Assembly (NCBI RefSeq): GCF_947258935.1
Contig: NZ_CAMYKH010000024.1
Location: forward strand, 1-43,436
Origin: an uncultured Muriicola sp.
GTDB taxonomy: Bacteria; Bacteroidota; Bacteroidia; Flavobacteriales; Flavobacteriaceae
Direction of reading: 5' to 3'
Length of the DNA stretch: 43,436 nucleotides
Shown here: one piece after another, positions 2,502 through 20,266 of the stretch
Numbering within the stretch: the stretch's first letter is position 1
Layout of the letters: every line of letters begins with the position of its first letter
Made by a program: the position numbers and the translations under genes
Notes under the pieces: model-generated
Seen by the model: only the letters and a program-made list of their open reading frames with translations
Told to the model about the DNA's origin: nothing
Databases searched by the model: none

Positions 2502-5500
2502 TTATCGATAAAGGGTAAAATGCCCAACATACTGTTGCTTTTCTTTGTCATTGGCATTCACTACATACCAGTAATCACCGGTGGGTAGTTCACTTCCCTC
2601 ATAGGTTCCATCCCAGGAAGTTACCTGGTCTAGCACAGCTACAACACGACCATATCTATCGTAGATCTTCACATCTATGTTAGGGAAGAAATCTCTGTTT
2701 CTAGGATACCAGACATCATTGTTGTTATCCCCGTCTGGCGTGAAGAAATTAGGAATATCGAGCATCCCGGTAAAATCGAACGGGATGGCCATTACAGCTA
2801 CACACCCCTGCTGATCTACTACCCGCACAGTTACAGTAGCGTCTGCATTCACCTCATAGATATTTACACTGCCATAGGAAACATCCTGGAAGAAATATTC
2901 ATACCCACCAAAACCACCCGTAGCAGTTGCTGTGAGCTCATTAGGCCCGGATTTGATCAGATCGAGTGTTAGCGGATCATAACTATCAATCGTAAAATCG
3001 ACAAAAGTGCTACATCCATTAGAATGGTAAATATATACGGTATGGTCACCCGGTGGAAGATCGCCCCATGTACGTTCTATATCTGCCAGAGCGGTAATAG
3101 CATCAGTTGGATCTGCAGGATCCAGAGCGAACATCAATTCCGGATATTGGGTAATATCCTGTACAGATACGGTAGCAGTGCTATTAGGGAAGATTCCAGT
3201 GCAGCCATAACTAACAAGGGCTTCAGGTATTAATTCTATGCCAATTCCTACCGGGACAATTACATTGGTCTCACATCCCCTCGCATCTCTGATAAATACC
3301 ACATAGGTATCTCCTCCACGGAGGTTATTAAATGTCATGGTTGGGTTAGGCGCAAAATCGGCCGGATCGGAAGAATTGAGGGAAAATTCATAAGGTGCTG
3401 TACCTCCATTTACAGTTACAGTGACCGAACCATCTTCATCACCCAAACAAGTTTCAGGAATAGAATTACCTATACCGGCAACCAATTCAGTGGGCTCCAT
3501 GATGGTGACCGTTTGTGTAATAGTACACCCCAGTTCGTCCTGAATGATGATCTCATAACTTCTTGGTTCCAGATCGGTGAAGGTCTTTCTATTTGGAAAT
3601 AAAGGATCGTCTCCTTCGAAAAATTCACTCAACTGATCGGAAATGGAATAACGTATGATCCCTGTTCCTCCACTGGCCTCAATAATGATCTGTCCATCAA
3701 TATCACCGTAACAACTAACAGGAACTGCTTCCAAATAGTCCAAGACTAATGGCGGCGGATCTACTATGGTGATGGGGGTGGAAATCGCCGTACAGCCTCC
3801 ACTTTCGGCATACACCCAGTACGTACCAGGACCAAGATCTCTGAAAATTCCTGATGCTTGCGCAGATCTTTCAGTATTTAAGGCATTTGGGAAAGGCGGC
3901 ACATCCGAATTCAACAAGGTATAGACATAGTTTCCTATTCCCCCAAAGGCTTCAGAACGAATGATCCCGGTGGCTTCCCCTGCACAATTAATAGTGGCAT
4001 TGGTAAGATCTAATGAGATTACAAGCGGTGCAGCCGGATCCAAAGAGATCTGGTTGGAGATCTCAAACGGACAGCCATTAGAATTTTGCACATCATACTG
4101 GAACGGTCCCGGATCGAGCGTAATGTCTTCCGAAATCTGAACAACAGTTGCTAAAGGATCTAAGGTATTAAACGGGATAAAAGGATCCGCAGTGCCAGAT
4201 CTTCTGTAGAAATAACTTATTCCCGGTTCCGGATTAGTGACTGTTAATTCCATAATACCTATATCACCACATCCGGGTGGTTGTAATTCTACTAATTCAG
4301 TGATCACAACTTCAGGATCTAAGATGGTGATAGGGATGGTTGTATAACTACATGCCCATCCATCAAAAACGGTTATGGTATAATCCCCAGCCGATAGATT
4401 TGCAAAGGAAGGAGTGGTTTGTAATCCACTGCTTGTTCCTTCTGAAATTCTATTTAATTGATACAGATAATTTCCTGCCCCCTGACCTCCACTTAAATTG
4501 AATGCCTCTATGACACCATTATTATCATTGTTACATTGTAAGGGCGTCGTGATCTGAATATCCGCATAAATAGGCGTAGGTAATAATAAAGTAATGGTAT
4601 TGGTAGCTATACATCCTTCAATATCCCGGATATTGATGGTATATGTGCCCTCCGAAAGATTAGTAATACTCATATTGGTACTTGGGTAGTCTTGAATAAC
4701 GGTAAATCCGTCTGGAGCAATAACCTGATATTCATAGGTTCCCCATCCACCATCGCCGGTTAGAAAGATCTCTCCAATTCCAGGAATAGCACAAGTTACT
4801 TCAGCGGTTTGCTGAGCTACCACAGTTAAGGCCCTATCGGGTTGCCTAACTGTTGTGACATTACTTACCGCATCACAGAAAGGCGTATCTAAAGCCTCTA
4901 CATGTACCACAAGATTTCCAGCGGGTAAGCCAGTAATTACACCAGGATTTTGGCCAACTATATTGGTGTCGAATGTTCCGGTTACACCGGTAGTAGTTTC
5001 CACACCGGTATTATCTCTTGAAAACACCTCGTAATTATAAATTCCTGTATACCCATTTATCTGTATGCTAATTTCTCCATCGGAGCCGTTGAAACAGGTT
5101 ACAGGCTTTACCTCAGCAATAACTGCATCAATGGTGTTGTACTCCGGCACATTAACTACAGCTGTTAGGTATGAACATCCTGCGTTGCCAATATCTGTAA
5201 CACTAAAGATATAATCTCCGGGTGTACTGATACTCCATACAACCCTGTCCGTTCCTCCAGAATTCTGGATCGGGGCAGATCCTAATGGAAGTATTTCTAC
5301 ATCATAATTACCCGGTCCTTGATCCATAATGATCTCTATTGATCCCGGATTTACACCAACACCGGTAGCATCACAGCTAAGCGGATTTACCAAATAAGTA
5401 AAGGTCAGATCCGTGGGAGCGTTGATCGTAATAGTATCTGTGATTTCACATCCGTTCTGATCCCTGGCCGTGAGAATAATAGTTTGATTTGTACCATTAT

Positions 5501-8500
5501 CGATCACCTCAAAAGTATTACTGGTCTGGAAATTGGTACCGTCAAAAGCAGGAGTACCGTCATTCATACTGTAGGTATACGGTGCGGTACCGGTATCAAT
5601 GCCACTACCATCACCATTGGTATCGGTATAAATGGTAATTGTGGCAGTGTTAAATCGGTTACTGCTGGGATCACAGGTAAAATCTGTATTCACTGCGTTG
5701 ATCTGTAAAGGCGAAGGTTCTGTGATGATCACATCGCCAGATCTGTCTGTACATCCCCTATCCGAGATCACTTCTACCTGATAGGTTCCGGGTGCTAAAT
5801 TATCAAAAAGAGCTACCCCCTGAGGACCCTGAACAATGGTAGCCGTACCTCCATCGTATAAGATAAAAGAGAAGGGTGAGTCTGTATCAGTTCCGGGTTG
5901 TAATTCTACTGCTATATATCCATCATTGGCTCCGTTACAGGTAATATCTCCTTTAGGTGTAGCAGAGATCACCGGATTTATAACCACCGTTACGTCTACC
6001 GTAACAGTATCGTTACATAAAGGAATGGTATTAGAATCCAGATCTGTCACCAGGATGGTATAATTACCTGGAAGAAGATTAATAAAGACTGGGTCATTTA
6101 GCTGAACTATAGGTGGATTTATTCCATCATCCAATTCATATTCAAAATTACCACTACCTCCGCTTGTATTTACCGTGATGACACCGTCCCCGGCATTACA
6201 TGTTGGTTCGGTAGTAGCACTTGCAGATATCGCAAAAAAGTCGAATACCCTCGCTATAACAGTATTTGTACATCCATTCCCATCTCTAACGGTTATGGTG
6301 TAATCTCCGGGATTAGGCACTGTAAAATTGGGACTACTCTGGAAACCTCCACCTATATCGTACTGAAAGGTGTCTTCTGGGGCCGGACCTGTTGTTAAAG
6401 GACTGGTTACGTCTATGGTATAATTTGCCACAGCAGTACACTGATTACTAACATCTACTGTAGGTACAGGAACTCCGGGATCTGTGGTAACCGTAACCGT
6501 TGTAAAGCTTGTACATCCAAAACTATCCTGCACATAAAAATCATAATCGGCAGGATATGGTCCGGCAATTTCATAGGTGGTCTGTGCTGTAAACACTCCC
6601 GGTGCTGGGTTCCCGTTGGGCACATAGGCAAAACCGTAAGCTGGTGTTCCTCCATTTCCGCGTACTGTGACCAGTGCTCCAACATTACAGTTAGCAGGTT
6701 GGTTATCATCTATGACAATGGCGGGGACATTGGGAACAATATCTACCAGTGTACTTGCATTACAACTTGTGTTATCATCCTGAACGATGATCTGATAGTT
6801 CCCTGCCGGCAATCCGGTGAATGAGCCATTGTAGGGAATAGGTTCGTTCGTAAGTGATGTTGGTCCACTTATAATTGCTCCGGTATTGGTATCCTGCAAT
6901 TGTATTGTTATGTCTGCCGGAGAGCCTATCCCGGTAACCTCGAAATCGATAGTTCCATTCGAATTAGGGGCACATGCGGCCGATGTGGCAGTTGCGATCA
7001 CCGAAAGTGGTGAAGGACCTACTATTGGATCAATTTGTTCTATATAGATACATCCCAATGCATCCTGAACCTGGACAAAATAAGTAACGCCGAAAGTCAC
7101 TTGCCCTGCAAAATCATGGATATCAATCCCGTTGACATTGGCCGGAACCAGCGGATTACCCACTAAACCAAACAAGTACGGTGCTGTACCGCCACTAGCC
7201 TGAAATCTGTACGTAATCCAGGGGTCCGTACAGTTAAGTGGTGGCACATCAAGCGGTGTAAGGATAATCTGATTTTGTATTATGGTAACGGTATCCCTGT
7301 CTTCACAACCCGATGCATCCTGGGTAATGACAGTATAGGTTCCCGGAACTAAATTTGGAAAATTAACAGCAGTTAGTGCCGTTGGCCCAACGGTCGTAAT
7401 TGTTGTTCCATTTATGTCTTGTACTATATAGGTATAAAGGGAAGTACCGTTCACAACATTTGTTACATCAATAGATCCTTCTACCGTAGGGGCAGCACAA
7501 ACGGCATCATTTGCTACAACCGTAGCATCGATCGCTGCACTGGCATTGATGGTTGCTGAAAGTAACGGTGTGGTACATCCACGGCTATCCCGGATCATAA
7601 AAGTATTGTATACTCCGGGGGCAAAGCCAGAAAACACATTCTGAGGTCCAAAAGTTGCTCCACTATCGTCACTGTATTCATAGGGAGGCACCCCAAAAGT
7701 CGTATCCGCGGTTAATGTGATAATCCCGTTATCTTCCCCACAAGTTGTATCGGTTGGAGTAGCCGTTCCAACTATAGATTCCGGTGGCGAAATAGTAACC
7801 ACATTAGTTTCTGTAGTACATCCTCTGCTATCTGTCACTAAGAACTGAAAGGTTGTATCGGCAATTAGAGAACCATCATTAGGAATACTATAGACAAAGG
7901 AGTTACCTGTAATATTAGTTGCACTAGAAGTATAAGGTGCCCCATCTATACTCACTTCGTAAATATCGTAGTCACCTCCTGAAGGGTACCCATCGCTGAT
8001 AACAACCTGTATTTCAGCTGGTGGACCACCACAATTTAGTTCAGTAATGGTTGTCGCAATGGCCGAAATTTCGGGCTCAATAGTAACAGAAACGGTATCT
8101 CTACAATCATTGGCATCTGCCACTTCTATTGAATAGGCACCTGGAGTAAGTCCATTAAAGGAACTCCCTCCTACCCAAGGTCCGCCATTAATTCTATATT
8201 GATAAGGTGGTAATCCCCCTGCAGCATTTACAGCAATGGTAGCCTGGTCTACATTGTCATAGCAATAATCACTAGACGCAGTATCAATGGTCAAAACCGG
8301 GGCTGCTAATACGGTAAGGGTAAAGCTGTCTGTAATGGTACAACCGTTTGCATCTGTAACACTTACCTGGTACAGGCCATCTAGAGTTAAATTGGAAAAA
8401 GTATTACCATTCTTTGGCCCTCTTATTGAAAGGTCTGGTTGAGTTAGCGTATAGCGATTTCCGCCCCATCCACCGACGGTATTGATGGTAACACTACCAA

Positions 8501-10841
8501 TATTTCCATTCTGGCAACTCATTGGAGTGACATTCAGACTACCGATCGCGAAAGCAACTGCAGGTTCCTGAATAACAAGTGTAGCTGTATCAGAACAATT
8601 CGTATCCTCATCAGTAACGTTAATTACATAACTGCCGGCACTTAAACCGGTCAGGGATATAATGCCGTTAGATTCACCCGTATTTAAAGGTCCGGCATCA
8701 ATGCTGTAACTATAGGTAGTTGCAAAACCATCGACCAGGAATCGTCCTTCACCATCGCTATCTCCAACGCAGGTGACCACTTTGGTTGCCTGAGCTTGCA
8801 CTGAAATTGAACTGATATCCGTTATTGCAAATACTTCATCGTATGAACAACCTTCATTATCGGTTACTCTAAATGTATATGTACCTAATCCCAAACCTGT
8901 AAAAACAGGATTATTCCCGTTATTGATGGCGCTAGCTGCCGGGGCAATAATTTCATAAGTAAAAGGTGCTGTACCATTTGTAACAGCTACGGTAACCGAG
9001 GCTGTACTGGTAAGACAATCGATACTGGAAATGGTAAAATCCATATCCGTAGGCTTATTCAAAGCATTGAAAATTATGGGCGCCAAGCTTTGTACACAAC
9101 CATTTGCATCTCTGATCTGCGGGGTATAAGTTCCCACACCAAGGTTAGTAAATACTGTTGTTCCGCTAAATCCGGCTCCAAGGCTATAGTCATATGGCCC
9201 TGTACCTCCGGATACTCCGGAAATAGTAATTTGTCCGCCATTCTCATTCAAACAACTGGGCACAGAATCGGCCGTAGCAGTAGCGGTGATATTTGAAGGT
9301 GTTCCAACAGTTTCAATTGTTGCCGGAGTTGTACAGATAAAACTACCTTGTTGGTAGCGGATCATTACGTCATAGCTGCCAGGAGCTAGGCCGGTAAATA
9401 CATTACTACTCTGGTAGCTTACTCCATTATTATTACTGTACTCTAAATTATACCCAAATCCATTGGTAATATTAACCGTTATACTCCCATCATTGATCCC
9501 TCCGCAATTTGCATCGAGGGTAGTGACTGTAAATACCGGCGGTGGAAGATCCTGTACATCCACACTTGCCGTTTTTGTACAGCCATTGGCATCTTCAATT
9601 AAAATATTATAGGTGCCGGCAGCACTTACAGTAAAAACGGTTGAAGGTGCATACGGTGCGCTAAAACTAACACCACCGTCCAGACTATATCTGTAGGGTG
9701 AAGTACCTCCTGAAGTATCAAGGGTTACGTCTACTGTGGCGGCCCCGCAACCAAAGCTATCATTTGCGGTAGCAGAAACGGCGATCGGACTTATACCATT
9801 ACCTATTACGATAGGGTTTGAATTTACATCCAGGGTAATAAGCTCATTACACTTATTTGTTTCCACTCGCACACTATAGGTGCCAGGACTTACATTGGCA
9901 AAGGTATAATTGTTTGCAGCATCGGGTCCAAAAGTATCTACAGTTACTGCATTCTTGATAAGTCTATATGTAAAAAAGCCGGGAACCCCCGTAACTTGTA
10001 CATCAATACTACCTAGTTGACCGCTACATAATATATCATTAGCCGTGACATCTACATTGATATTAAGGTCTGCAACTGTAACCGTATTAGAAGGAAATAA
10101 ACAAGAACTTGCAGATACATTCTTAAGTCGAACCCACACCATATAGTTTCCTGGTGCTGTAATATCAAAATATGGAGTGTCCTGGTAAGGACCTGCAGGA
10201 CTGTTAAGACTATATTCATAACCAGCAGGTACATTAGTGATCTCTACTCTTCCCGGGTTACCACAGATAATATCTTCCTTAATAAGTTGCGGATTCAGTG
10301 GATTGAGAGTAGATTTAAAATAATAGTACTGTCCACCGTCTACGCGTACTCTGAACTCCCCACTGCTAGACAAATCATAGGTTGCTCCGGTACCTACAGT
10401 GTCATAACATGTATTTGTTGTATTTGCGCAATCCTCAATAACGGAGGCAGCACAACGGTTGGGATCTAATTTTTGCCATTCGTAGGAAGAACCGGATTGA
10501 CTTAAACCTATGGTCCTAACATCACTTGTACCACAAAGAAAGAATTTAGCCAATGTGCTACCGTCGTTGGGACAGGTAACCTCCTCGTTGGCTCCAAGTA
10601 TTATAGTAACAAACATGGGAGATGCCTCCGAGATCATTATTTCGGAACTGAACGGGGTATTAGTCACTAAAAGATCAGCCTCTGTAATAGCATCATTGGA
10701 TACTATCTCCGACTTAGCTGTATTATCGAGCTTTGAAATAAACCTGTATATGTTCGGGTTTGCGACGGCTGAAGTACCTACGATACAAAAAGCCAACCAA
10801 AGCACGGCATACACAAAATGCCTAGATTTTTTAGGGAGCAT
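2502..10841 (-). CDS. Giant SprB-repeat protein with T9SS type B sorting domain
   Basis: A 2779-residue secreted protein. Residues 1-27 are a signal peptide (hydrophobic run ending in SAVA). From about residue 185 to 2690 I count roughly 29 degenerate repeats of 75-95 residues with the pattern C-x(2-5)-DGxIxV, GGxxPYxYSL, FxxLxxGxY, then V-D-xxGC; this is the SprB-repeat type found in the gliding adhesin SprB and many flavobacterial surface proteins. Residues 2693-2779 form the gliding-motility-associated C-terminal domain. The protein would cross the inner membrane by Sec and the outer membrane by the type IX system, then act as a surface adhesin or shed filament. It is well below the size of SprB itself (over 6000 residues), so it is a paralogous family member. 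It stands alone, convergent with the upstream lipoprotein gene and divergent from the sugar dehydrogenase. Confidence 0.88.
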   Translation of the reverse strand: MLPKKSRHFVYAVLWLAFCIVGTSAVANPNIYRFISKLDNTAKSEIVSNDAITEADLLVTNTPFSSEIMISEASPMFVTIILGANEEVTCPNDGSTLAKFFLCGTSDVRTIGLSQSGSSYEWQKLDPNRCAASVIEDCANTTNTCYDTVGTGATYDLSSSGEFRVRVDGGQYYYFKSTLNPLNPQLIKEDIICGNPGRVEITNVPAGYEYSLNSPAGPYQDTPYFDITAPGNYMVWVRLKNVSASSCLFPSNTVTVADLNINVDVTANDILCSGQLGSIDVQVTGVPGFFTYRLIKNAVTVDTFGPDAANNYTFANVSPGTYSVRVETNKCNELITLDVNSNPIVIGNGISPIAVSATANDSFGCGAATVDVTLDTSGGTSPYRYSLDGGVSFSAPYAPSTVFTVSAAGTYNILIEDANGCTKTASVDVQDLPPPVFTVTTLDANCGGINDGSITVNITNGFGYNLEYSNNNGVSYQSSNVFTGLAPGSYDVMIRYQQGSFICTTPATIETVGTPSNITATATADSVPSCLNENGGQITISGVSGGTGPYDYSLGAGFSGTTVFTNLGVGTYTPQIRDANGCVQSLAPIIFNALNKPTDMDFTISSIDCLTSTASVTVAVTNGTAPFTYEIIAPAASAINNGNNPVFTGLGLGTYTFRVTDNEGCSYDEVFAITDISSISVQAQATKVVTCVGDSDGEGRFLVDGFATTYSYSIDAGPLNTGESNGIISLTGLSAGSYVINVTDEDTNCSDTATLVIQEPAVAFAIGSLNVTPMSCQNGNIGSVTINTVGGWGGNRYTLTQPDLSIRGPKNGNTFSNLTLDGLYQVSVTDANGCTITDSFTLTVLAAPVLTIDTASSDYCYDNVDQATIAVNAAGGLPPYQYRINGGPWVGGSSFNGLTPGAYSIEVADANDCRDTVSVTIEPEISAIATTITELNCGGPPAEIQVVISDGYPSGGDYDIYEVSIDGAPYTSSATNITGNSFVYSIPNDGSLIADTTFQFLVTDSRGCTTETNVVTISPPESIVGTATPTDTTCGEDNGIITLTADTTFGVPPYEYSDDSGATFGPQNVFSGFAPGVYNTFMIRDSRGCTTPLLSATINASAAIDATVVANDAVCAAPTVEGSIDVTNVVNGTSLYTYIVQDINGTTITTVGPTALTAVNFPNLVPGTYTVITQDASGCEDRDTVTIIQNQIILTPLDVPPLNCTDPWITYRFQASGGTAPYLFGLVGNPLVPANVNGIDIHDFAGQVTFGVTYFVQVQDALGCIYIEQIDPIVGPSPLSVIATATSAACAPNSNGTIDFEVTGIGSPADITIQLQDTNTGAIISGPTSLTNEPIPYNGSFTGLPAGNYQIIVQDDNTSCNASTLVDIVPNVPAIVIDDNQPANCNVGALVTVRGNGGTPAYGFAYVPNGNPAPGVFTAQTTYEIAGPYPADYDFYVQDSFGCTSFTTVTVTTDPGVPVPTVDVSNQCTAVANYTIDVTSPLTTGPAPEDTFQYDIGGGFQSSPNFTVPNPGDYTITVRDGNGCTNTVIARVFDFFAISASATTEPTCNAGDGVITVNTSGGSGNFEYELDDGINPPIVQLNDPVFINLLPGNYTILVTDLDSNTIPLCNDTVTVDVTVVINPVISATPKGDITCNGANDGYIAVELQPGTDTDSPFSFILYDGGTATIVQGPQGVALFDNLAPGTYQVEVISDRGCTDRSGDVIITEPSPLQINAVNTDFTCDPSSNRFNTATITIYTDTNGDGSGIDTGTAPYTYSMNDGTPAFDGTNFQTSNTFEVIDNGTNQTIILTARDQNGCEITDTITINAPTDLTFTYLVNPLSCDATGVGVNPGSIEIIMDQGPGNYDVEILPLGSAPIQNSGGTDRVVWSISTPGDYIFSVTDIGNAGCSYLTAVVNVPEYNTIDAVIAEVKPVTCFNGSDGEISIQINGYTGIYNYEVFSRDNTGVETTTGVTGTFDTNIVGQNPGVITGLPAGNLVVHVEALDTPFCDAVSNVTTVRQPDRALTVVAQQTAEVTCAIPGIGEIFLTGDGGWGTYEYQVIAPDGFTVIQDYPSTNMSITNLSEGTYTINIRDIEGCIATNTITLLLPTPIYADIQITTPLQCNNDNNGVIEAFNLSGGQGAGNYLYQLNRISEGTSSGLQTTPSFANLSAGDYTITVFDGWACSYTTIPITILDPEVVITELVELQPPGCGDIGIMELTVTNPEPGISYFYRRSGTADPFIPFNTLDPLATVVQISEDITLDPGPFQYDVQNSNGCPFEISNQISLDPAAPLVISLDLTNATINCAGEATGIIRSEAFGGIGNYVYTLLNSDVPPFPNALNTERSAQASGIFRDLGPGTYWVYAESGGCTAISTPITIVDPPPLVLDYLEAVPVSCYGDIDGQIIIEASGGTGIIRYSISDQLSEFFEGDDPLFPNRKTFTDLEPRSYEIIIQDELGCTITQTVTIMEPTELVAGIGNSIPETCLGDEDGSVTVTVNGGTAPYEFSLNSSDPADFAPNPTMTFNNLRGGDTYVVFIRDARGCETNVIVPVGIGIELIPEALVSYGCTGIFPNSTATVSVQDITQYPELMFALDPADPTDAITALADIERTWGDLPPGDHTVYIYHSNGCSTFVDFTIDSYDPLTLDLIKSGPNELTATATGGFGGYEYFFQDVSYGSVNIYEVNADATVTVRVVDQQGCVAVMAIPFDFTGMLDIPNFFTPDGDNNNDVWYPRNRDFFPNIDVKIYDRYGRVVAVLDQVTSWDGTYEGSELPTGDYWYVVNANDKEKQQYVGHFTLYR
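2505..2765 (-). other. Type B T9SS C-terminal sorting domain (within the giant gene)
   Basis: Residues 2693-2779 carry the hallmark features of the type B (CHU_C) signal: IPNFFTPDGDNNND, then a W, KIYDRYGRVV, a WDGTYEGSELPTGDYWYVV block and the ending HFTLYR. In this family the domain directs export through the outer membrane, normally with a dedicated PorP/SprF-like partner; no such partner gene is present in this window. Confidence 0.9.
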
Positions 10842-12529: not shown

Positions 12530-13345
12530 TTACTTTTTATAGTTGTCCATGGCCTTTTTTACCGACCCGAATTTTTTTAGGACTTGTGCAGCCTCTTTGT
12601 AATTTAATTGCAGGCCTTCCATTAAATACCTGGTACCCCTGTCTACTAATTTGTTATTACTCAACTGCATATTCACCATTTTATTCCCTTTAATCCTACC
12701 TATGCGGATCATAAGGGCAGTCGAGATCATGTTGAGTACTAGTTTTTGAGAAGTACCACTTTTCATTCGGGTACTGCCGGTAACAAATTCGGGACCCACG
12801 TTGATCTCTAATGGAATCTCCACGGCCTGTGCCAATGGAGAACCCGGGTTATTGGTGATACCAGCCGTTAAAAGTCCTTGTTTCCTGGCTTCAGTTACTC
12901 CTCCCAGTACATAGGGGGTAGTTCCGGAGGCAGCTATACCAACCACCGTATCTAATGCATTTATATCAAACTCCTGAAGGTCTTTCCAGGCTTGTTGGGT
13001 ATCATCTTCCGCAAATTCTACTGCTTTTCTGATAGCAGAATCGCCACCTGCAATGAGGCCAATTACGCGATCATGCGGAAGCCCAAAGGTTGGTGGAATT
13101 TCGGAGGCATCAAGAATGCCCAGCCTTCCGCTGGTTCCTGCGCCTATGTAGAACAGTCTACCCCCTTGTAAAAATCGCTCGGTGAGGGCGTTTACCAGGG
13201 TCTCAATAGGAGGTATAACAGCGGCTACTGCTCTTGCCACTTTCTGATCTTCCATATTTATATTAGACAGAAGATCTGCTGTGGACATCAGTTCGAGACT
13301 CTCATGTTCCGAGGAATTTTCGGTGATTTTCTTAAAGTTGGTCAT
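12530..13345 (-). CDS. murQ: N-acetylmuramic acid 6-phosphate etherase
   Basis: A 271-residue SIS-domain enzyme that removes the D-lactyl ether from MurNAc-6-P, giving GlcNAc-6-P and D-lactate in the cytoplasm. Visible motifs are GRLFYIGAGTSGRLGILDASE with the probable catalytic Glu82, the second catalytic-type Glu113 in FAEDD, and the GCKR/MurQ signature GPEFVTGSTRMKSGTSQK. These match the two acidic residues (83 and 114) described in the E. coli enzyme. The protein is slightly shorter than the usual ~300 residues. It lies 2 bases after the deoR-type regulator and forms an operon with it, divergent from the NagB/PIG-L fusion that would process its product. Confidence 0.95.
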   Translation of the reverse strand: MTNFKKITENSSEHESLELMSTADLLSNINMEDQKVARAVAAVIPPIETLVNALTERFLQGGRLFYIGAGTSGRLGILDASEIPPTFGLPHDRVIGLIAGGDSAIRKAVEFAEDDTQQAWKDLQEFDINALDTVVGIAASGTTPYVLGGVTEARKQGLLTAGITNNPGSPLAQAVEIPLEINVGPEFVTGSTRMKSGTSQKLVLNMISTALMIRIGRIKGNKMVNMQLSNNKLVDRGTRYLMEGLQLNYKEAAQVLKKFGSVKKAMDNYKK

Positions 13346-13347
13346 AA

Positions 13348-14097
13348 TTACAATAAACGGATGTCCTGGTTTCTAAATAGATTTAAAAGGGTATTCTCTG
13401 GTTGAAGTTCTGTGATCATCGTATTTATGGCATTGATATCGCAGGTCTTAAAACGATGTTGGGAATTCAGTTTTTCAGATATACACAAAAGTATTGTTTT
13501 TTTAGAAGCCTGGATAACAGCTTTCTTAAGCTGAACCACATCCCAGTCGAACTCTGTAAGCCCATGCAATGAATCCACATATCCTGTCCCAATAAAGCAA
13601 TAGTCGAATTTAACTTCAGATAAGCGTTGAATTGTATAGGATCCGTTAGAGATCATTGCATCCTTAGAGATTCGCCCTCCAATAAAAATAAGGTCCACAT
13701 TGGGCATCCCGGCAAGTTGCAGAGCCACCGGCAGACTATAAGTAAAGCAAGTCAGATTTAGTTTTGGTGGAATTGTTCTGGCCATCTCAAGACAGGTTGT
13801 TCCGCCATCAATAAAAATAACTGCACCATTTTTAAGTAGCGTCACTGCTTTTGTGGCAATCACCATTTTTTCATTAAGGGCATACACATTGGTGCTGCGC
13901 GAGGCAGTATGGGTATATCCCAGTGATATGGCACCCCCATGTACTTTCCTCAATTTACTTTCTGAATCTAGCTCCTTCACATCCCTGCGAACTGTATCTA
14001 CAGAAACTTCAAGATGTTCTGCAATGTCTGTTAACAACACCCTATTGTGTAATTCAACTTCATTTAATATTAGCTGTTGTCTTTCTTCTTTTAACAT
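13348..14097 (-). CDS. DeoR-family regulator of amino-sugar/MurNAc recycling
   Basis: A 249-residue repressor-type protein. Residues 1-57 form the DeoR winged helix (RQQLILNEV, LTDIAEHLEVSVDTVRRDVKEL, then KVHGGAIS). Residues ~75-235 are the DeoRC phosphosugar-sensing domain with its FIDGGTTCLEMA loop at 95-106 and the later FIGTGYVD motif. Family members sense sugar phosphates; given its operon with murQ and its position opposite the NagB gene, an amino-sugar phosphate such as GlcNAc-6-P, GlcN-6-P or MurNAc-6-P is the likely ligand. The intergenic repeats at 14176-14216 are the most plausible operator. The ligand and target are inferences. Confidence 0.9.
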   Translation of the reverse strand: MLKEERQQLILNEVELHNRVLLTDIAEHLEVSVDTVRRDVKELDSESKLRKVHGGAISLGYTHTASRSTNVYALNEKMVIATKAVTLLKNGAVIFIDGGTTCLEMARTIPPKLNLTCFTYSLPVALQLAGMPNVDLIFIGGRISKDAMISNGSYTIQRLSEVKFDYCFIGTGYVDSLHGLTEFDWDVVQLKKAVIQASKKTILLCISEKLNSQHRFKTCDINAINTMITELQPENTLLNLFRNQDIRLL

Positions 14098-14271: not shown

Positions 14272-16215
14272 ATGATATCACCTGCTCTTTTACCTGAAGG
14301 TATTTCCTTTCCAACAGACGAGGAATCACAAAAGTTTGAAAAGATCAAAACACACATTCACACTAATTCTGAGGAAGCTTCTTATTACGTTGCCAACGAA
14401 ATTGCCGAACTTATAAGACAGCGGCAAAAGAGTGGAAAAAAGGTAGTCTTAGGACTTGCTACTGGTTCTACACCTACCAAGGTTTATGACATCCTGGTCA
14501 AATTTCACAAGGAAGAAGGTTTGAGCTTTAAGAATGTGGTCACTTTTAATCTGGATGAGTACTTCCCCATGAAAGCAGATTCAATTCACAGTTATGTTCG
14601 TTTTATGCGCGAACATCTTTTTGATCACATAGATATAAAGAAAGAAAATGTAAACATTCCTGACGGTAGCCTTGAAAAGGAAGATGTACGCGACTACTGT
14701 GCCGCCTTCGAAGAAAAAATTAAAAAGGCAGGAGGAATAGATATACAGGTGCTGGGTATCGGCAGAACAGGGCATATCGGATTCAACGAACCAGGATCCT
14801 CCATCATCAGTAAAACCAGGATGGTAAGACTAGACAGGGTTACAAGACTAGATGCTGCAAGCGACTTCTTTGGTTTGGAAAATGTTCCTTCCCGTGCTAT
14901 CACCATGGGAGTTGGTACCATTCTCTCTGCAAAACGAATTATTCTGATGGCCTGGGGTGAAGGCAAAGCCGATATTATTAATCAGGCTGTGGAAGGCCCA
15001 ATTCGGGAATCCGTGCCTGCTACCTTCCTTCAAAATCATCCAAATTGTGACTTTATCCTCGATGAGGCAGCAGCCTCTGATTTAACAAGGGTAAATACCC
15101 CCTGGCTGGTAAGCGAATGTCAGTGGGATGATACCTTGACAAAAAAAGCCGCTATCTGGCTTTCGGGGAAACTCAATAAAGCGATCTTAAAATTGACCAA
15201 CGAGGATTACAATGAATACGGAATGGGGAGCCTGGTTGCCGAAATAGGATCTGCAGAACATATAAACCTTATTGTTTTTAACGAGTTGCAGCGTACTATT
15301 ACCGGTTGGCCGGGTGGTAAGCCCAATGCAGATGACAGTAATAGGCCGGAGCGCAAAGATCCGTACCCAAAAACATCGCTTGTGTTTAGTCCGCACCCAG
15401 ATGATGATGTAATCTCCATGGGTGGTACGCTACTAAGACTGGTAGATCAGGGGCATGATGTTCATATAGCCTACCAGACCTCAGGAAATATCGCGGTCTT
15501 CGATGATGAAGTGATCCGCTTCCTTGATTTTGCCAAGGATATCCAAAATGACAATGAGGCACTACAAAAACAATTTAAAGAAGTTAGAGCATTTTTAGAT
15601 CAGAAACATCCGGGACAGGTAGATAGTCCTCAAATACAACAATTCAAAGGGTTGATACGCAAGGGTGAAGCGCTGTCTGCCTGCCGTTATTGCGGGGTAA
15701 AAGAAGAGAATGCTCACTTTCAAAACCTGCCTTTTTACGAAACCGGAACGGTGAAGAAAAAACCCTATTCCGAGGCAGACATAGAACAAACGTACCAACT
15801 CCTGCAAAAGATAAAGCCTCATCAAATATTTGCTGCGGGGGATCTTTCCGACCCGCATGGTACGCACAGGGTGTGTCTGAATATCATTTACAGAGCACTG
15901 GATAGACTAGTCAAAGAAAAAGCTGCCTGGATAAAGGATTGTTATGTTTGGCTTTATAGAGGTGCCTGGCAAGAATGGGATATTGCCGATATGGAAATGG
16001 CAGTACCTGTTGGTCCAAAAGATATGCAACGAAAGAAAAATGCCATATTTAAACATCAGTCTCAAAAGGACAGTGCCATGTTTCCCGGTAATGATAACAG
16101 AGAATTCTGGCAACGTGCAGAACAACGAAATAAGAAAACAGCCAACAAATACAATGCCCTGGGACTAGCTGAGTATGAGGCCATGGAAGGATTTGTCAGG
16201 TATCATTTTATGTGA
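14272..16215 (+). CDS. nagB: Glucosamine-6-phosphate deaminase fused to a PIG-L/LmbE deacetylase domain
   Basis: A 647-residue two-domain cytoplasmic protein; a standalone NagB is about 240-270 residues. Residues ~20-285 are the NagB domain: GLATGSTPTKVY phosphate loop at 61-72, NLDEYF at 93-98 and GIGRTGHIGFNEPGS at 162-176, with His168 and Glu173 matching catalytic residues; the Asp of the E. coli triad is Thr166 here. After a linker, residues ~365-560 are a PIG-L/LmbE domain with the zinc motif HPDDD at 375-379 and the second half HGTH at 529-532. NagB turns GlcN-6-P into fructose-6-P and ammonia. The PIG-L family removes N-acetyl groups from GlcNAc derivatives, so the fusion could also supply the GlcNAc-6-P deacetylase step. 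No nagA is seen in the window. First gene of the plus-strand recycling operon. Confidence 0.9.
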   Translation: MISPALLPEGISFPTDEESQKFEKIKTHIHTNSEEASYYVANEIAELIRQRQKSGKKVVLGLATGSTPTKVYDILVKFHKEEGLSFKNVVTFNLDEYFPMKADSIHSYVRFMREHLFDHIDIKKENVNIPDGSLEKEDVRDYCAAFEEKIKKAGGIDIQVLGIGRTGHIGFNEPGSSIISKTRMVRLDRVTRLDAASDFFGLENVPSRAITMGVGTILSAKRIILMAWGEGKADIINQAVEGPIRESVPATFLQNHPNCDFILDEAAASDLTRVNTPWLVSECQWDDTLTKKAAIWLSGKLNKAILKLTNEDYNEYGMGSLVAEIGSAEHINLIVFNELQRTITGWPGGKPNADDSNRPERKDPYPKTSLVFSPHPDDDVISMGGTLLRLVDQGHDVHIAYQTSGNIAVFDDEVIRFLDFAKDIQNDNEALQKQFKEVRAFLDQKHPGQVDSPQIQQFKGLIRKGEALSACRYCGVKEENAHFQNLPFYETGTVKKKPYSEADIEQTYQLLQKIKPHQIFAAGDLSDPHGTHRVCLNIIYRALDRLVKEKAAWIKDCYVWLYRGAWQEWDIADMEMAVPVGPKDMQRKKNAIFKHQSQKDSAMFPGNDNREFWQRAEQRNKKTANKYNALGLAEYEAMEGFVRYHFM

Positions 16216-16320: not shown

Positions 16321-17598
16321 ATGATACAAAAAGATAAATGGGCCTGGGCCTGGGTTCCTATTCTTTATTTTACGCAGGGACTACCTTATGTTATGGTAGT
16401 CACCGTTTCAGTAATCATGTACAAAAAGCTGGGGATTAGTAATGCAGATATTGGCTTGTACACTAGTTGGCTCTATCTGCCCTGGGTAATAAAACCGCTG
16501 TGGAGTCCATTCCTTGATCTGAAAAGCACAAAACGAAATTGGTTCTTGCTGATGCAGTTAATCGTTTCCTTGTCCTTCCTGGCCATCGGTTTTGCGCTTC
16601 CTACAAACATATTTTTTATAACTACCCTGGCCTGTTTCTGGATGGCGGCCTTTGCCTCTGCCACAAACGATATTGCCTCAGATGGCTATTATATGATTGG
16701 CCTAACTCAGGAAAAACAGTCGTTTTTTGTAGGAGTACGCAGTACCTTCTATAAATTAGCGAATGTTACCGGACAGGGTTTGCTGGTGATCCTGGCGGGT
16801 TTTTTAGAAAATTATTACGGGGACAATACAAAGGCCTGGTCCGTCACCATGATCTGTGCGGCAATCATAATGTTCGCCCTAACGGTCGCCAATTATTTTA
16901 CTACCCCTAAATTTGAATCTTCTAGTGCAATCACCCTCGAAAAACCAAATAGCTTTTTAGAAGTATTCTCTACCTTTTTTAAGAAACCCGGAATAGGAAT
17001 GGCTCTGGCCTTTATTTTGTTCTTCAGGTTAGGGGAATCCCAATTAGTGAAAATGGCCTCTCCTTTTTTACTCGATCCTAAGGAGGCAGGTGGACTTGGA
17101 TATAGCACGGCAGAAGTAGGAACAATTTACGGCACCATAGGAGTAATTATGCTTACTATTGGAGGAATATTAGGTGGAGTATTAATTTCGAGACACGGTT
17201 TAAAGAAATGGTTCTTTCTTATGGTACTCTCACTCAATATTCCAAATGCATTCTATGCCTTCCTGGCTATTACCAATACCAATAGTATTGCTGCTGTTGT
17301 AACCACAGTAATATTGGAACAATTTGGCTATGGCTTTGCAATTGCAGGATTTATGGTATATCTCATCTATATTGCCGAAGGTGTATCTAAAACTTCTCAC
17401 TATGCTCTCGCAACCGGATTTATGGCACTGGGAATGATGCTTCCCGGTCTTATCAGTGGGTATATGCAAGAATGGTTGGGCTATGATGGTTTCTTCATTT
17501 GGGTTGTTTTAGCGGCGCTACCTTCGTTCATTCTCTTAAAATATATCAAATATCCTCCCGATTATGGAAAAAAAGGAGCAGACAACAGTACCTACTAA
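16321..17598 (+). CDS. AmpG-like MFS permease for anhydro-muropeptides
   Basis: A 425-residue inner-membrane protein with about 12 hydrophobic helices and no signal peptide. The start (WAWVPILYFTQGLPYVMV), the LYTSWLYLPWVIKPLWSPFLD segment and the TNDIASDGYYM motif in helix 4 are typical of the AmpG family, which imports GlcNAc-anhydroMurNAc and its peptides. Flanking genes for NagZ, AnmK, MurQ and a NagB fusion make muropeptide uptake the most coherent role. It follows the NagB fusion by 105 bases, and the downstream GH3 frame overlaps its 3' end. I saw no strong promoter of its own. Confidence 0.82.
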   Translation: MIQKDKWAWAWVPILYFTQGLPYVMVVTVSVIMYKKLGISNADIGLYTSWLYLPWVIKPLWSPFLDLKSTKRNWFLLMQLIVSLSFLAIGFALPTNIFFITTLACFWMAAFASATNDIASDGYYMIGLTQEKQSFFVGVRSTFYKLANVTGQGLLVILAGFLENYYGDNTKAWSVTMICAAIIMFALTVANYFTTPKFESSSAITLEKPNSFLEVFSTFFKKPGIGMALAFILFFRLGESQLVKMASPFLLDPKEAGGLGYSTAEVGTIYGTIGVIMLTIGGILGGVLISRHGLKKWFFLMVLSLNIPNAFYAFLAITNTNSIAAVVTTVILEQFGYGFAIAGFMVYLIYIAEGVSKTSHYALATGFMALGMMLPGLISGYMQEWLGYDGFFIWVVLAALPSFILLKYIKYPPDYGKKGADNSTY

Positions 17599-19180
17599 CA
17601 TAATGCCTTTTAAAGAGGCAACATGCATACTTACTGATCGGGAGAAAATTGGTCAATTTTTTATGCCTGCAGCCTTTATTAACGATTCCGAGGCTTCCAT
17701 AAAATCTTTGGAATCTCTGATTCGCAAAGAATCTATTGGAGGTATTTGCTTCTTTCACAGCAGGGCCAGTGCAGCTACCAATTACGAAGGGAAAAAGAAA
17801 ATAACCTACAATAAGAATAGCTTTCAGGTCCTAAAAGATTTGATTGTCCGATATAGCGCAGCGGCCAAATACCCGCTCCTAATCAGTATTGATGCAGAAT
17901 GGGGTCTTGCTATGCGAGTTGAAGAAACTCCTCAATACCCTTATGCCATTACCTTGGGAGCCGCACATGACCCGCAATTGGTCTATGAGGTGGGAAAAAA
18001 AGTAGGTAGCGATTGCAAAGCTGCCGGCATTCACTGGAATTTTGCTCCGGTAGCAGATGTCAATAATAATCCGAATAATCCTGTTATAGGATACAGATCT
18101 TTTGGAAGTAACAAAAAAGACGTTAGCACTAACGCAATTGCCTTTTCCAAAGGATTACAGGATGCAGGGATCCTCGGTTGTTCGAAACATTTCCCGGGGC
18201 ATGGTGATACAGCCACAGATTCGCATTTGGGCCTACCTGTGATCGATAAATATAGAGAAGACCTTTTTGAGCAAGAACTCTATCCATTTATGGAACTGAT
18301 AAAAAATAATGTAGACGCTGTGATGGTAGGGCACCTATCTGTACCCGCCTTTACCAAAGGAAAACAGGTCTCAGCTTCTGTTTCGGACGAGATCATCAAA
18401 GGATTGCTTAGAGGGGAGTTGGGATATGATGGAGTGGTAGTTTCAGACGCTTTGAACATGCACAGTGTTTCCAAGACCTTCCCAAAAAAGGGTGGCCTGG
18501 AATGGGCTGCCTTTAACGCCGGGAATGATATCCTTTGTTTTGCAGAAAACGTCAAAGAAGGGATCGACGCTATCTTAAAAAAAGCGACTAATTCTCAAAT
18601 TGAAGAGAGCTTTAATAGGGTCTGGGCATTAAAAATAAAAGCGATAAGCCAGGCTTCAACCAATCTTCCCGCAGTGAGCGATCCTGATCCTTTGAACGCA
18701 CTCATAGCTGGAAAATGTCTTACATTTTACAAAGGCTCTCAGGAAATACTTTCAGAATTTTTAGGATCTGGTTTTTACGGAATCCAATTTGGCAAAAGCA
18801 AACTAACCGCCTTTTTCGATATTGTTAATGAACGTACCGGAAGCCAAAGTTTGTTGGGACGCGATCGATCTTTTAAGAACATAAAATCGGCCCTAGGCGC
18901 AAACTCCAAACTACTGATCGCGGTATATCCACCCAGCATCAAACCGCAGCTTAGTTTTGGCATGGACCCTCTTCAACTTGAGATTCTTATTGAACTTATT
19001 CGCAAATATGACGTAGTTTTATATTTGTTTGGAAATCCGTATTTCCTTAGGTTGTTACCCCTGAAAAAGGTCTCTGCAATAATAATCGCATACCAGGATC
19101 TAAAGGGTTTCGAAGAAAATGCAGCAGCACATTTTTTGGGCAATACGAAGGCCGTTGGTTCATTGCCTGTGTCATTATAA
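17564..19180 (+). CDS. nagZ: NagZ-type GH3 beta-N-acetylglucosaminidase with C-terminal extension
   Basis: A 538-residue glycoside hydrolase family 3 protein. The ATG at 17564 overlaps the permease by 35 bases; an ATG at 17603, four bases after the permease stop, is equally plausible and loses no domain. Key features are the NagZ loop KHFPGHGDTATDSH (residues 208-221, general acid/base His) and the nucleophile Asp295 in VVSDALNMHS. There is no signal peptide, so it is cytoplasmic and would cut GlcNAc from anhydroMurNAc after AmpG uptake. Compact Gram-negative NagZ enzymes are about 340 residues; this one carries another ~170-200 residues (FYKGSQEIL onward) that resemble the second domain of longer GH3 glucosaminidases. 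Part of the recycling operon, ending 9 bases before anmK. Confidence 0.88.
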   Translation: MEKKEQTTVPTNIMPFKEATCILTDREKIGQFFMPAAFINDSEASIKSLESLIRKESIGGICFFHSRASAATNYEGKKKITYNKNSFQVLKDLIVRYSAAAKYPLLISIDAEWGLAMRVEETPQYPYAITLGAAHDPQLVYEVGKKVGSDCKAAGIHWNFAPVADVNNNPNNPVIGYRSFGSNKKDVSTNAIAFSKGLQDAGILGCSKHFPGHGDTATDSHLGLPVIDKYREDLFEQELYPFMELIKNNVDAVMVGHLSVPAFTKGKQVSASVSDEIIKGLLRGELGYDGVVVSDALNMHSVSKTFPKKGGLEWAAFNAGNDILCFAENVKEGIDAILKKATNSQIEESFNRVWALKIKAISQASTNLPAVSDPDPLNALIAGKCLTFYKGSQEILSEFLGSGFYGIQFGKSKLTAFFDIVNERTGSQSLLGRDRSFKNIKSALGANSKLLIAVYPPSIKPQLSFGMDPLQLEILIELIRKYDVVLYLFGNPYFLRLLPLKKVSAIIIAYQDLKGFEENAAAHFLGNTKAVGSLPVSL

Positions 19181-19189
19181 GAGAACAGT

Positions 19190-20266
19190 ATGAAGATATA
19201 TAAAGGTATTGGAATGATGTCTGGTACTTCGCTGGATGGACTCGATCTTGTGTATTGCCATATATGGAAACCTTTGACCAGGTGGGAGTTCAAGATTGAA
19301 AAGACGAAAAGTATCCCTTACAGCAAAAAACGAGTGACTCGCTTACAGGAGGCTATTAGATTGCCTGCAGATCAGTTACTTTGTTTGCACAATGAATACG
19401 GTACATGGCTGGGAGAACAAGTTGGGCAATTTATTGAGAAAGAAAAGTTAGAAGTTAATTTTGTTTCGAGTCATGGGCATACGGTGCACCATCAACCTGC
19501 GAAAGGCCTTACATTTCAAATAGGATCGGGTCAGCATCTGGCCAACGCCTGTGGCATCAAGACCATCTGCGATTATAGAACAAACGATGTAGCCCTGGGT
19601 GGGCAAGGAGCTCCGCTTGTTCCAATAGGCGATCATATGCTCTTTGGAACCTATGATTTTTGCCTTAATCTTGGAGGAATTAGCAATATATCTTTTGTTC
19701 TGGATGATAAGAGAATAGCTTATGATATTGGGATAGCCAATATGTTACTCAATTATATTGCGGCAGGTGAAGGATTAAAATATGATAAAGGAGGAACCTT
19801 GGCACGCAAGGGAACATTGCTTCCGCAGTTGTTTGAGAAGTTAAATTCTCTTGCTTATTACGCGCTGCCCTACCCAAAGTCTACGGGATATGAATGGTTC
19901 TCAAAAGAAATTGTCCCATTGATTAAAGAGCAAGACGCTTCCATTGAATCCTTATTGCACACATCGGTTCACCACATATGCGAACAGATCGCCCGGCAGT
20001 TAAAATTGCTTACGATTAAAAATGAAAAAACCTTATTGATCACAGGGGGAGGTGCTTTTAATACCTACCTGACCGAAGTTTTGCAAGACAAGCTAGGAAA
20101 AAAGATCAAACTTGAGATTCCTTCAAACCAGCTAATTGAATTCAAAGAAGCGCTGATTTTTTGTCTTATGGGTGTCTTGCGTTTGGAACAAGAGATCAAC
20201 GTATTGCATTCGGTAACAGGCGCCAGCAAAGACTCATCTTCCGGAGTGGTATACCTGCCATGTTAA
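19190..20266 (+). CDS. anmK: Anhydro-N-acetylmuramic acid kinase
   Basis: A 358-residue ASKHA-fold kinase that opens and phosphorylates 1,6-anhydroMurNAc with ATP, giving MurNAc-6-P for MurQ. Motifs: MMSGTSLDGLD at residues 9-19, SSHGHTVHH, the GGQGAPLVP loop at 137-145, NLGGISNIS, and a GGGAFN turn in the C-terminal lobe. The usual GPGN segment reads DIGIANMLLN here, a variant I associate with the Bacteroidota branch. It is the last gene of the plus-strand recycling operon and converges on the carboxylase gene with a 24-base gap that has no clear terminator. Assignment is secure from the N-terminal motif and context. Confidence 0.95.
   Translation: MKIYKGIGMMSGTSLDGLDLVYCHIWKPLTRWEFKIEKTKSIPYSKKRVTRLQEAIRLPADQLLCLHNEYGTWLGEQVGQFIEKEKLEVNFVSSHGHTVHHQPAKGLTFQIGSGQHLANACGIKTICDYRTNDVALGGQGAPLVPIGDHMLFGTYDFCLNLGGISNISFVLDDKRIAYDIGIANMLLNYIAAGEGLKYDKGGTLARKGTLLPQLFEKLNSLAYYALPYPKSTGYEWFSKEIVPLIKEQDASIESLLHTSVHHICEQIARQLKLLTIKNEKTLLITGGGAFNTYLTEVLQDKLGKKIKLEIPSNQLIEFKEALIFCLMGVLRLEQEINVLHSVTGASKDSSSGVVYLPC

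Follow-up and report, generated by a model that had tools for sequence, protein, structure and literature searches.

A protein encoded in a peptidoglycan-recycling locus of an uncultured Muriicola sp. is probably a bifunctional enzyme that deacetylates N-acetylglucosamine 6-phosphate (GlcNAc-6-P) and deaminates the product, and it would thereby constitute a non-orthologous replacement of the amidohydrolase NagA. Deacetylation of GlcNAc-6-P is required for living on cell-wall sugar, chitin, and the amino sugars of mucin. The gene is located at positions 14272–16215 on the forward strand of the analyzed stretch of DNA (43,436 nucleotides; hereafter, the window), and its product of 647 aa comprises, all on the same strand, a NagB (glucosamine-6-phosphate deaminase) domain (aa 25–277, 14344–15102), a helical linker (aa 278–365, 15103–15366), and a PIG-L/LmbE domain (aa 366–647, 15367–16212). 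The NagB domain was delimited by structure alignment and residue conservation, and the PIG-L domain by PF02585 and structure alignment; the linker is without a Pfam match and contains helices at residues 287–301, 310–315, 319–325, and 328–342 in the AlphaFold model.

The Pfam model Glucosamine_iso matches aa 33–254 with 81.2 bits (cut-off 27), and the PIG-L model PF02585 matches aa 370–542 with 64.7 bits (cut-off 28.2). Furthermore, the NagB equivalog model TIGR00502 scores 259.2 bits (cut-off 236.9), and NF002557 (PRK02122) covers aa 16–646 with 1062.6 bits (cut-off 384); TIGR00221, the model of the amidohydrolase NagA, has no match to the fusion protein at E ≤ 0.001. Because the whole chain matches NF002557, the architecture is that of an already named family, which is widespread and annotated as a deaminase only. 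The fusion is no product of chance or assembly, since it was found over the NF002557 cut-off in 125 of 296 Bacteroidota genomes (sampled with a requested completeness of at least 95%; the genome of the window is 94% complete) and in 8 of the 9 genomes of the genus, where it is split into 2 pieces in G298 and truncated in G296, the single genome without it being 74% complete. An earlier reading of the window, made from the sequence alone, had described a NagB domain joined to a PIG-L domain with both zinc half-motifs, and the Pfam and NF002557 matches as well as the motif positions (TGHIGF at 166, HPDDD at 375, HGTH at 529) agree with that description, including its numbering of H168, H375, and D378.

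Residue conservation was evaluated in 181 fusion sequences, i.e., that of the window, 80 near orthologs, and 100 copies from the phylum sample. In the deaminase half, the catalytic residues of NagB are represented by D95, H168 (each in 180 of 181), and E173 (181 of 181), which we take to correspond to D72, H143, and E148 of Escherichia coli NagB; position 166, presumably the counterpart of E. coli Asp141, is Thr in 143 of the 181 sequences. In the PIG-L half, HPDDD (15394–15408, forward strand) would supply the zinc ligands H375 and D378 together with the general base D377, while HGTH (15856–15867, forward strand) contains H529 and, judging from conservation, the putative third zinc ligand H532. 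This assignment follows the published LmbE motif HXD1D2 plus H, in which, according to a 2014 review (PMC4101496), 2 His and D2 serve as metal ligands and D1 as the base, and which corresponds to H375-P-D377-D378 and H532 in the fusion. H375 and D378 are invariant, D377 is present in 177 of the 181 sequences, and H529 and H532 are present in 179 each. As stated in the same review (PMC4101496), all LmbE enzymes treated there act on an N-acyl-glucosamine core. Two oddities count against reading the second half as a deacetylase: T531 occupies, in all 181 sequences, the position before the last zinc ligand at which MshB and BshB have Asp, and the D378–H532 spacing of 154 residues lies outside the 97–148 residues between ligands 2 and 3 given for characterized LmbE enzymes in the review (PMC4101496), a range that describes known members and is no requirement.

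The AlphaFold model of the fusion, built from 55 fusion sequences, has a mean pLDDT of 90.5. In comparisons with VIA-align, the first half matched 2bkv, which we take to be the NagB of Bacillus subtilis, with a Z-score of 37.7 (rmsd 1.1, 242 aligned residues), and 1ne7 with 37.4. The PIG-L half matched the bacillithiol enzyme BshB (6p2t; Z-score 21.8, rmsd 2.8, 210 aligned) and an archaeal diacetylchitobiose deacetylase (3wl3; 21.3, rmsd 4.7, 239 aligned). It should be noted that the same fold also hosts a hydratase, GalB (5cgz; 20.1), which counts against the deacetylase reading.

The genes around the fusion are consistent with a role in peptidoglycan recycling. On the reverse strand, and thus divergent from the fusion, lie murQ (N-acetylmuramic acid 6-phosphate etherase, 12530–13345; NF003915 363.7 bits, cut-off 168; TIGR00274 296.2, slightly below the cut-off of 302) and, between murQ and the fusion, a gene for a DeoR-family regulator (13348–14097; PF00455 and PF08220). 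Downstream, on the forward strand, follow genes for an AmpG-like muropeptide permease of the MFS type (16321–17598; TIGR00901 181.6 bits, below the cut-off of 350), a glycoside hydrolase family 3 NagZ-like beta-N-acetylhexosaminidase (17564–19180; PF00933 241 bits; NF003740 151.1, below the cut-off of 207), and the anhydro-N-acetylmuramic acid kinase AnmK (19190–20266; NF007144 504.5 bits, cut-off 436). From these neighbors we infer a pathway in which AmpG would import anhydro-muropeptides, NagZ would split off GlcNAc, and AnmK would yield MurNAc-6-P, which MurQ would convert to GlcNAc-6-P. The zinc-dependent PIG-L half would then cleave off acetate, and the resulting GlcN-6-P would be converted by the NagB half of the same chain into fructose-6-phosphate and ammonia. 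As regards the gene arrangement itself, the gap between the fusion and ampG is only 105 bp, and the permease and NagZ-like frames overlap by 35 bp (17564–17598, starts as called), which suggests that their translation may be coupled. Elsewhere in the window, a frame on the reverse strand (2502–10841) encodes a 2779-aa protein that is repetitive and, by eye, secreted-looking.

The conservation of this arrangement was determined in orthologous loci, taken as the best 80 of 218 related loci in GTDB contigs; the related loci stem from Muriicola, Zeaxanthinibacter, Eudoraea, Robiginitalea, Allomuricauda, Flagellimonas, Cellulophaga, metagenome-assembled genomes, and others. The divergent order of murQ and the DeoR-type gene relative to the fusion is kept in 79 of the 80. 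Within up to 8 kb, with several loci ending at contig ends, AmpG was found in 72 of the 80, NagZ in 66, AnmK in 56, and NagA in none. A gene whose cluster is represented by a GHL10 protein (PF02638) was present in the retrieved flank in 53 of these 80 loci (e.g., L068, 15338–16849); GHL10 enzymes include DigH of E. coli, which acts on denuded peptidoglycan glycans. Two further genomes (G048 and G185) have MurQ and the fusion on a shared strand behind a kinase-like gene, the latter being judged from its N-terminus alone.

A different picture emerged for 100 further fusion copies, chosen among the matches listed for the phylum sample and analyzed with 7-kb flanks where contigs allowed: the same sequence test detected NagA in the flanks of 2 copies and MurQ in none of them, and therefore the linkage to MurQ is limited to a part of the fusion family. 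Recurrent around these copies are TonB-receptor-type genes, GH20 hexosaminidases, sodium:solute symporters, and LacI regulators. Moreover, a ROK-family gene adjoins the fusion on a Persicobacter plasmid, and an MFS transporter, a GH18 protein, and SusC are encoded near it on a Hymenobacter plasmid; both plasmid records label the fusion as nagB, glucosamine-6-phosphate deaminase. In other Bacteroidota, the same protein is located in chitin- and glycan-type loci.

The genome of the window (2.9 Mb in 155 contigs, 94% complete) contains no nagA over the TIGR00221 cut-off, the best score being 32 bits compared to 225.65. The sequence-only reading had noted a murQ divergent from the fusion and no nagA in the locus, both of which hold, and the genome-wide search for nagA that it proposed has likewise turned up none. 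A diverged NagA elsewhere in this genome was considered and set aside: 6 weak TIGR00221 matches score 22–32 bits, two of which (L001 and L004) are, on reading, large amidohydrolases unlike NagA, and two (L003 and L006) share a contig with L001. Two further candidates were rejected by inspection, namely the only other NF002557 match in the NagB half, which is encoded beside a glucose-6-phosphate dehydrogenase-like frame and resembles 6-phosphogluconolactonase, and the only other PIG-L protein from the NF002557 search, which resembles the bacillithiol protein BshB1. The kinase model NF046058 reached only 17 bits in this genome, and viral contigs contained no relative of the fusion. Across the genus, a nagA match at E ≤ 1e-20 is missing from all 9 genomes (including that of the window), of which two reach 99% completeness with no more than 3 contigs. 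In a set of 60 relatives, NagA and the fusion do not avoid each other: the 6 genomes with NagA all carry the fusion, and NagA is absent from each of the 30 genomes without the fusion.

Within the phylum sample, a nagA match at E ≤ 1e-20 is present in 52 of the 296 genomes (44 of the 52 over the cut-off) and MurQ in 218, including 124 of the 125 with the fusion. NagA was matched in 30 of these 125 genomes and not in the other 95; Bacteroides ihuae, a named control, has the fusion and MurQ and no nagA match at E ≤ 1e-20. A mutual exclusion of NagA and the fusion was considered and abandoned in view of the 30 genomes with both, and NagA occurs in 1 of the 130 genomes with neither deaminase form. 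NagB-type matches (E < 1e-20) were obtained in 166 genomes, as the fusion in 125 and otherwise in 41, and a search of the latter with the PIG-L half revealed a partner of another form in 29: a long form, mostly of approximately 770–820 aa, and one split pair. NagA is absent from 114 of the 154 NagB-type genomes with a PIG-L partner, compared to 1 of the 12 without one (present in 40 versus 11; Fisher 9e-6, phylogeny ignored). Fourteen of the 154 have the long form only, without a canonical NagB over the TIGR00502 cut-off, and leaving those out, NagA is found in 37 of 140. Of the 27 genomes in which a canonical NagB stands alone, 8 of the 9 without NagA and 7 of the 18 with NagA have a PIG-L partner (Fisher 0.019; within-family permutation 0.022).

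The strongest objection to this interpretation comes from G067, in which a NagA over the TIGR00221 cut-off directly adjoins an intact fusion, in a cluster that also encodes an N-acylglucosamine 2-epimerase-family protein and a protein with sialate-esterase-type domains. Given this genome and the 30 of 125 in which both enzymes coexist, the PIG-L half may be redundant there or may have a different substrate. It is conceivable, although we regard it as rather unlikely, that the PIG-L half is an active deacetylase of another GlcNAc compound (free GlcNAc, GlcNAc-anhMurNAc, or chitobiose) and that NagB receives GlcN-6-P after the action of a kinase. Besides the coexistence with NagA, this would fit the nearest solved PIG-L folds, which include diacetylchitobiose deacetylases and BshB, as well as the GH20, TonB/SusD-type, and transporter genes of fusion loci. 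However, in the pathway of the window, MurQ forms GlcNAc-6-P directly, no other GlcNAc-6-P deacetylase was found in the same genome by the TIGR00221 and NF002557 searches, and the fusion to, or pairing with, NagB points to a substrate just upstream of NagB.

Natural variants bear on whether the two active sites are separable. In G218, which has no NagA, NagB and a 286-aa PIG-L protein are encoded by neighboring genes with a gap of approximately 26 bp (as called), and both motifs are intact. Neither G229 nor G237, which are 2 species of one genus, has a NagA match at E ≤ 1e-20; in both, the fusion carries D95Y/H168N and retains HPDDD and DPHGTH, and each genome encodes a separate canonical NagB with the usual motifs. 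The reverse situation was found in 4 genomes of another genus, in which a second fusion copy (L212, L213, L214, and L216) has lost the base D377 (HPADD), two of the copies also lacking H532, while the deaminase site of the copy and an intact first copy remain; two of these genomes (G170 and G202) have a NagA-model match. The neighbors of the L212 copy are the same as those of the intact copies L208–L210 (clusters c35, c36, the TonB-receptor cluster c9, and c49).

A residue-by-residue reading of the long form covers 8 loci (L245–L250, L273, and L274); beyond these, the form was deduced from NagB and PIG-L matches on neighboring stretches of one long frame. The 8 proteins are approximately 780–800 aa long and consist of a degenerate NagB half, in which the glutamate equivalent to E173 is lost, and a PIG-L-like half, in which the zinc ligands and the base are kept (HHDD...DTH). 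Three long forms scanned with Pfam gave no match, and a profile comparison with the fusion aligned 581 columns (E 2.8e-46). MurQ is encoded in the fetched stretch of L245–L250 and AmpG in those of L248–L250 and L273, so that 7 of the 8 have one or both and L274 has neither; a BadF-type kinase is present in the L248 stretch. A canonical NagB follows the long form on the same strand, at a distance of 123 bp in L273 and with 2 genes in between in L274. As a mark of NagA-less genomes, the linkage of the long form to MurQ proved weak: among 19 MurQ regions, partly chosen for closeness, the long form occurs in 6 of 12 from NagA-less and 0 of 7 from NagA-positive genomes, and outside these regions the NagA-positive G223 has a long form approximately 6 kb from MurQ.

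Furthermore, the 2 halves of the fusion are conserved to different degrees. The PIG-L half is more conserved than the NagB half in all 5 pairs with an intact zinc site (identities of 92% versus 81%, 96% versus 88%, 88% versus 80% in the f8 pair, and 62% versus 57%; 89% versus 82% in the G237/G229 pair with its dead NagB half), and less conserved in both D377A pairs (68% versus 81% and 84% versus 91%). The dead NagB half of G229/G237, at 82%, drifts no faster than that of the intact f8 pair and therefore may keep some role. Taken together, the split pair, the half-dead variants, the long form, the D377-lost copies, and the half-by-half conservation indicate that the zinc site most likely still works catalytically and is under selection, that it is separable from deamination, and that its product is fed to a NagB. 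The proposal of the sequence-only reading that one chain performs both steps in place of NagA is well supported by comparative genomics (no NagA found in any of the 9 genomes of the genus, the split pair, the separated sites, and the conservation of the PIG-L half), but not as an exclusive replacement, with 30 of 125 fusion genomes also having a NagA match.

There is very little room for the view that the PIG-L half has lost catalysis and is structural or regulatory, the protein being a NagB with an extra domain, as annotated. Current names, including the annotated plasmid records, do give a deaminase only, T531 stands in place of Asp, and 4 second copies lack the base. However, zinc ligands and base are kept in at least 177 of the 181 sequences, the PIG-L half exceeds the NagB half in conservation in pairs with an intact zinc site and falls below it in pairs that lack D377, and G229 and G237 have lost the NagB site and kept the zinc site.

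In 55 of the 296 genomes, MurQ was found without NagA, the fusion, or any NagB-type match at E < 1e-20 (SIS-type NagB-II being left out). Only one weak match to a PIG-L protein was detected among these 55 (G021), and therefore such MurQ-only genomes do not use a fusion-type enzyme. The premise of the earlier reading that GlcNAc-6-P from MurQ needs deacetylation is consequently a weak one: because of these 55 genomes, the presence of MurQ does not imply a need for NagA or another deacetylase, and the absence of NagA beside MurQ is weak evidence that proves little by itself. That MurQ-derived GlcNAc-6-P stays acetylated (e.g., through direct use as UDP-GlcNAc) and that the fusion serves glucosamine only, as these 55 genomes might suggest, is nevertheless highly improbable, since the fusion and MurQ are divergently arranged in 79 of the 80 orthologous loci (best 80 of 218) and share a strand in G048 and G185, and since the conserved zinc site would have no job.

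The open-access literature searched yielded no deacetylase role for the PIG-L half, and none of the words NagB, "fused," and glucosamine-6-phosphate occurs in the LmbE review (PMC4101496). For Flavobacterium johnsoniae, 2 reports (PMC5127042, PMC7426924) give Fjoh_3974 as the predicted NagA and describe, for the NagB of the chitin locus (Fjoh_4557), that its expression in E. coli failed and that its deletion left chitin use unaffected. With somewhat less assurance than for the protein of the window, we consider it likely that most GlcNAc-6-P-catabolizing Bacteroidota do without NagA and employ a zinc-dependent PIG-L deacetylase joined to NagB, as one chain, be it of the short or the long form, or as the products of a gene pair, in peptidoglycan recycling as well as in the use of chitin and glycans, the two-step enzyme being hidden under the annotation of its second half. 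If so, a second, unrelated enzyme would perform GlcNAc-6-P deacetylation in approximately 40% of the sampled Bacteroidota (125 of 296), metabolic reconstructions that rely on NagA only would show gaps or predict wrong phenotypes, and half of the function would be missing from public records in which the gene is called just nagB. The variants with either half inactivated make the two-step claim directly testable.

Compared with known systems, the fusion has the same two-domain architecture as the "glucosamine-6-phosphate deaminase-like protein" of NF002557 (PRK02122), a name that covers the deaminase only and assigns no role to the PIG-L half. With NagA (TIGR00221), of which none was found in its own genome, it would share the reaction, although NagA belongs to an unrelated family, the amidohydrolase superfamily. 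The N-terminal half has the fold and the catalytic residues of the NagB enzymes from E. coli, human, and B. subtilis, from which the fusion differs by the additional C-terminal PIG-L half. The latter has in common with BshB, MshB, and diacetylchitobiose deacetylase the fold and the HxDD plus H zinc motif; in contrast to these LmbE/PIG-L deacetylases, it is joined to NagB, has Thr before the last zinc ligand and the longer spacing of 154 residues, and would act on GlcNAc-6-P.
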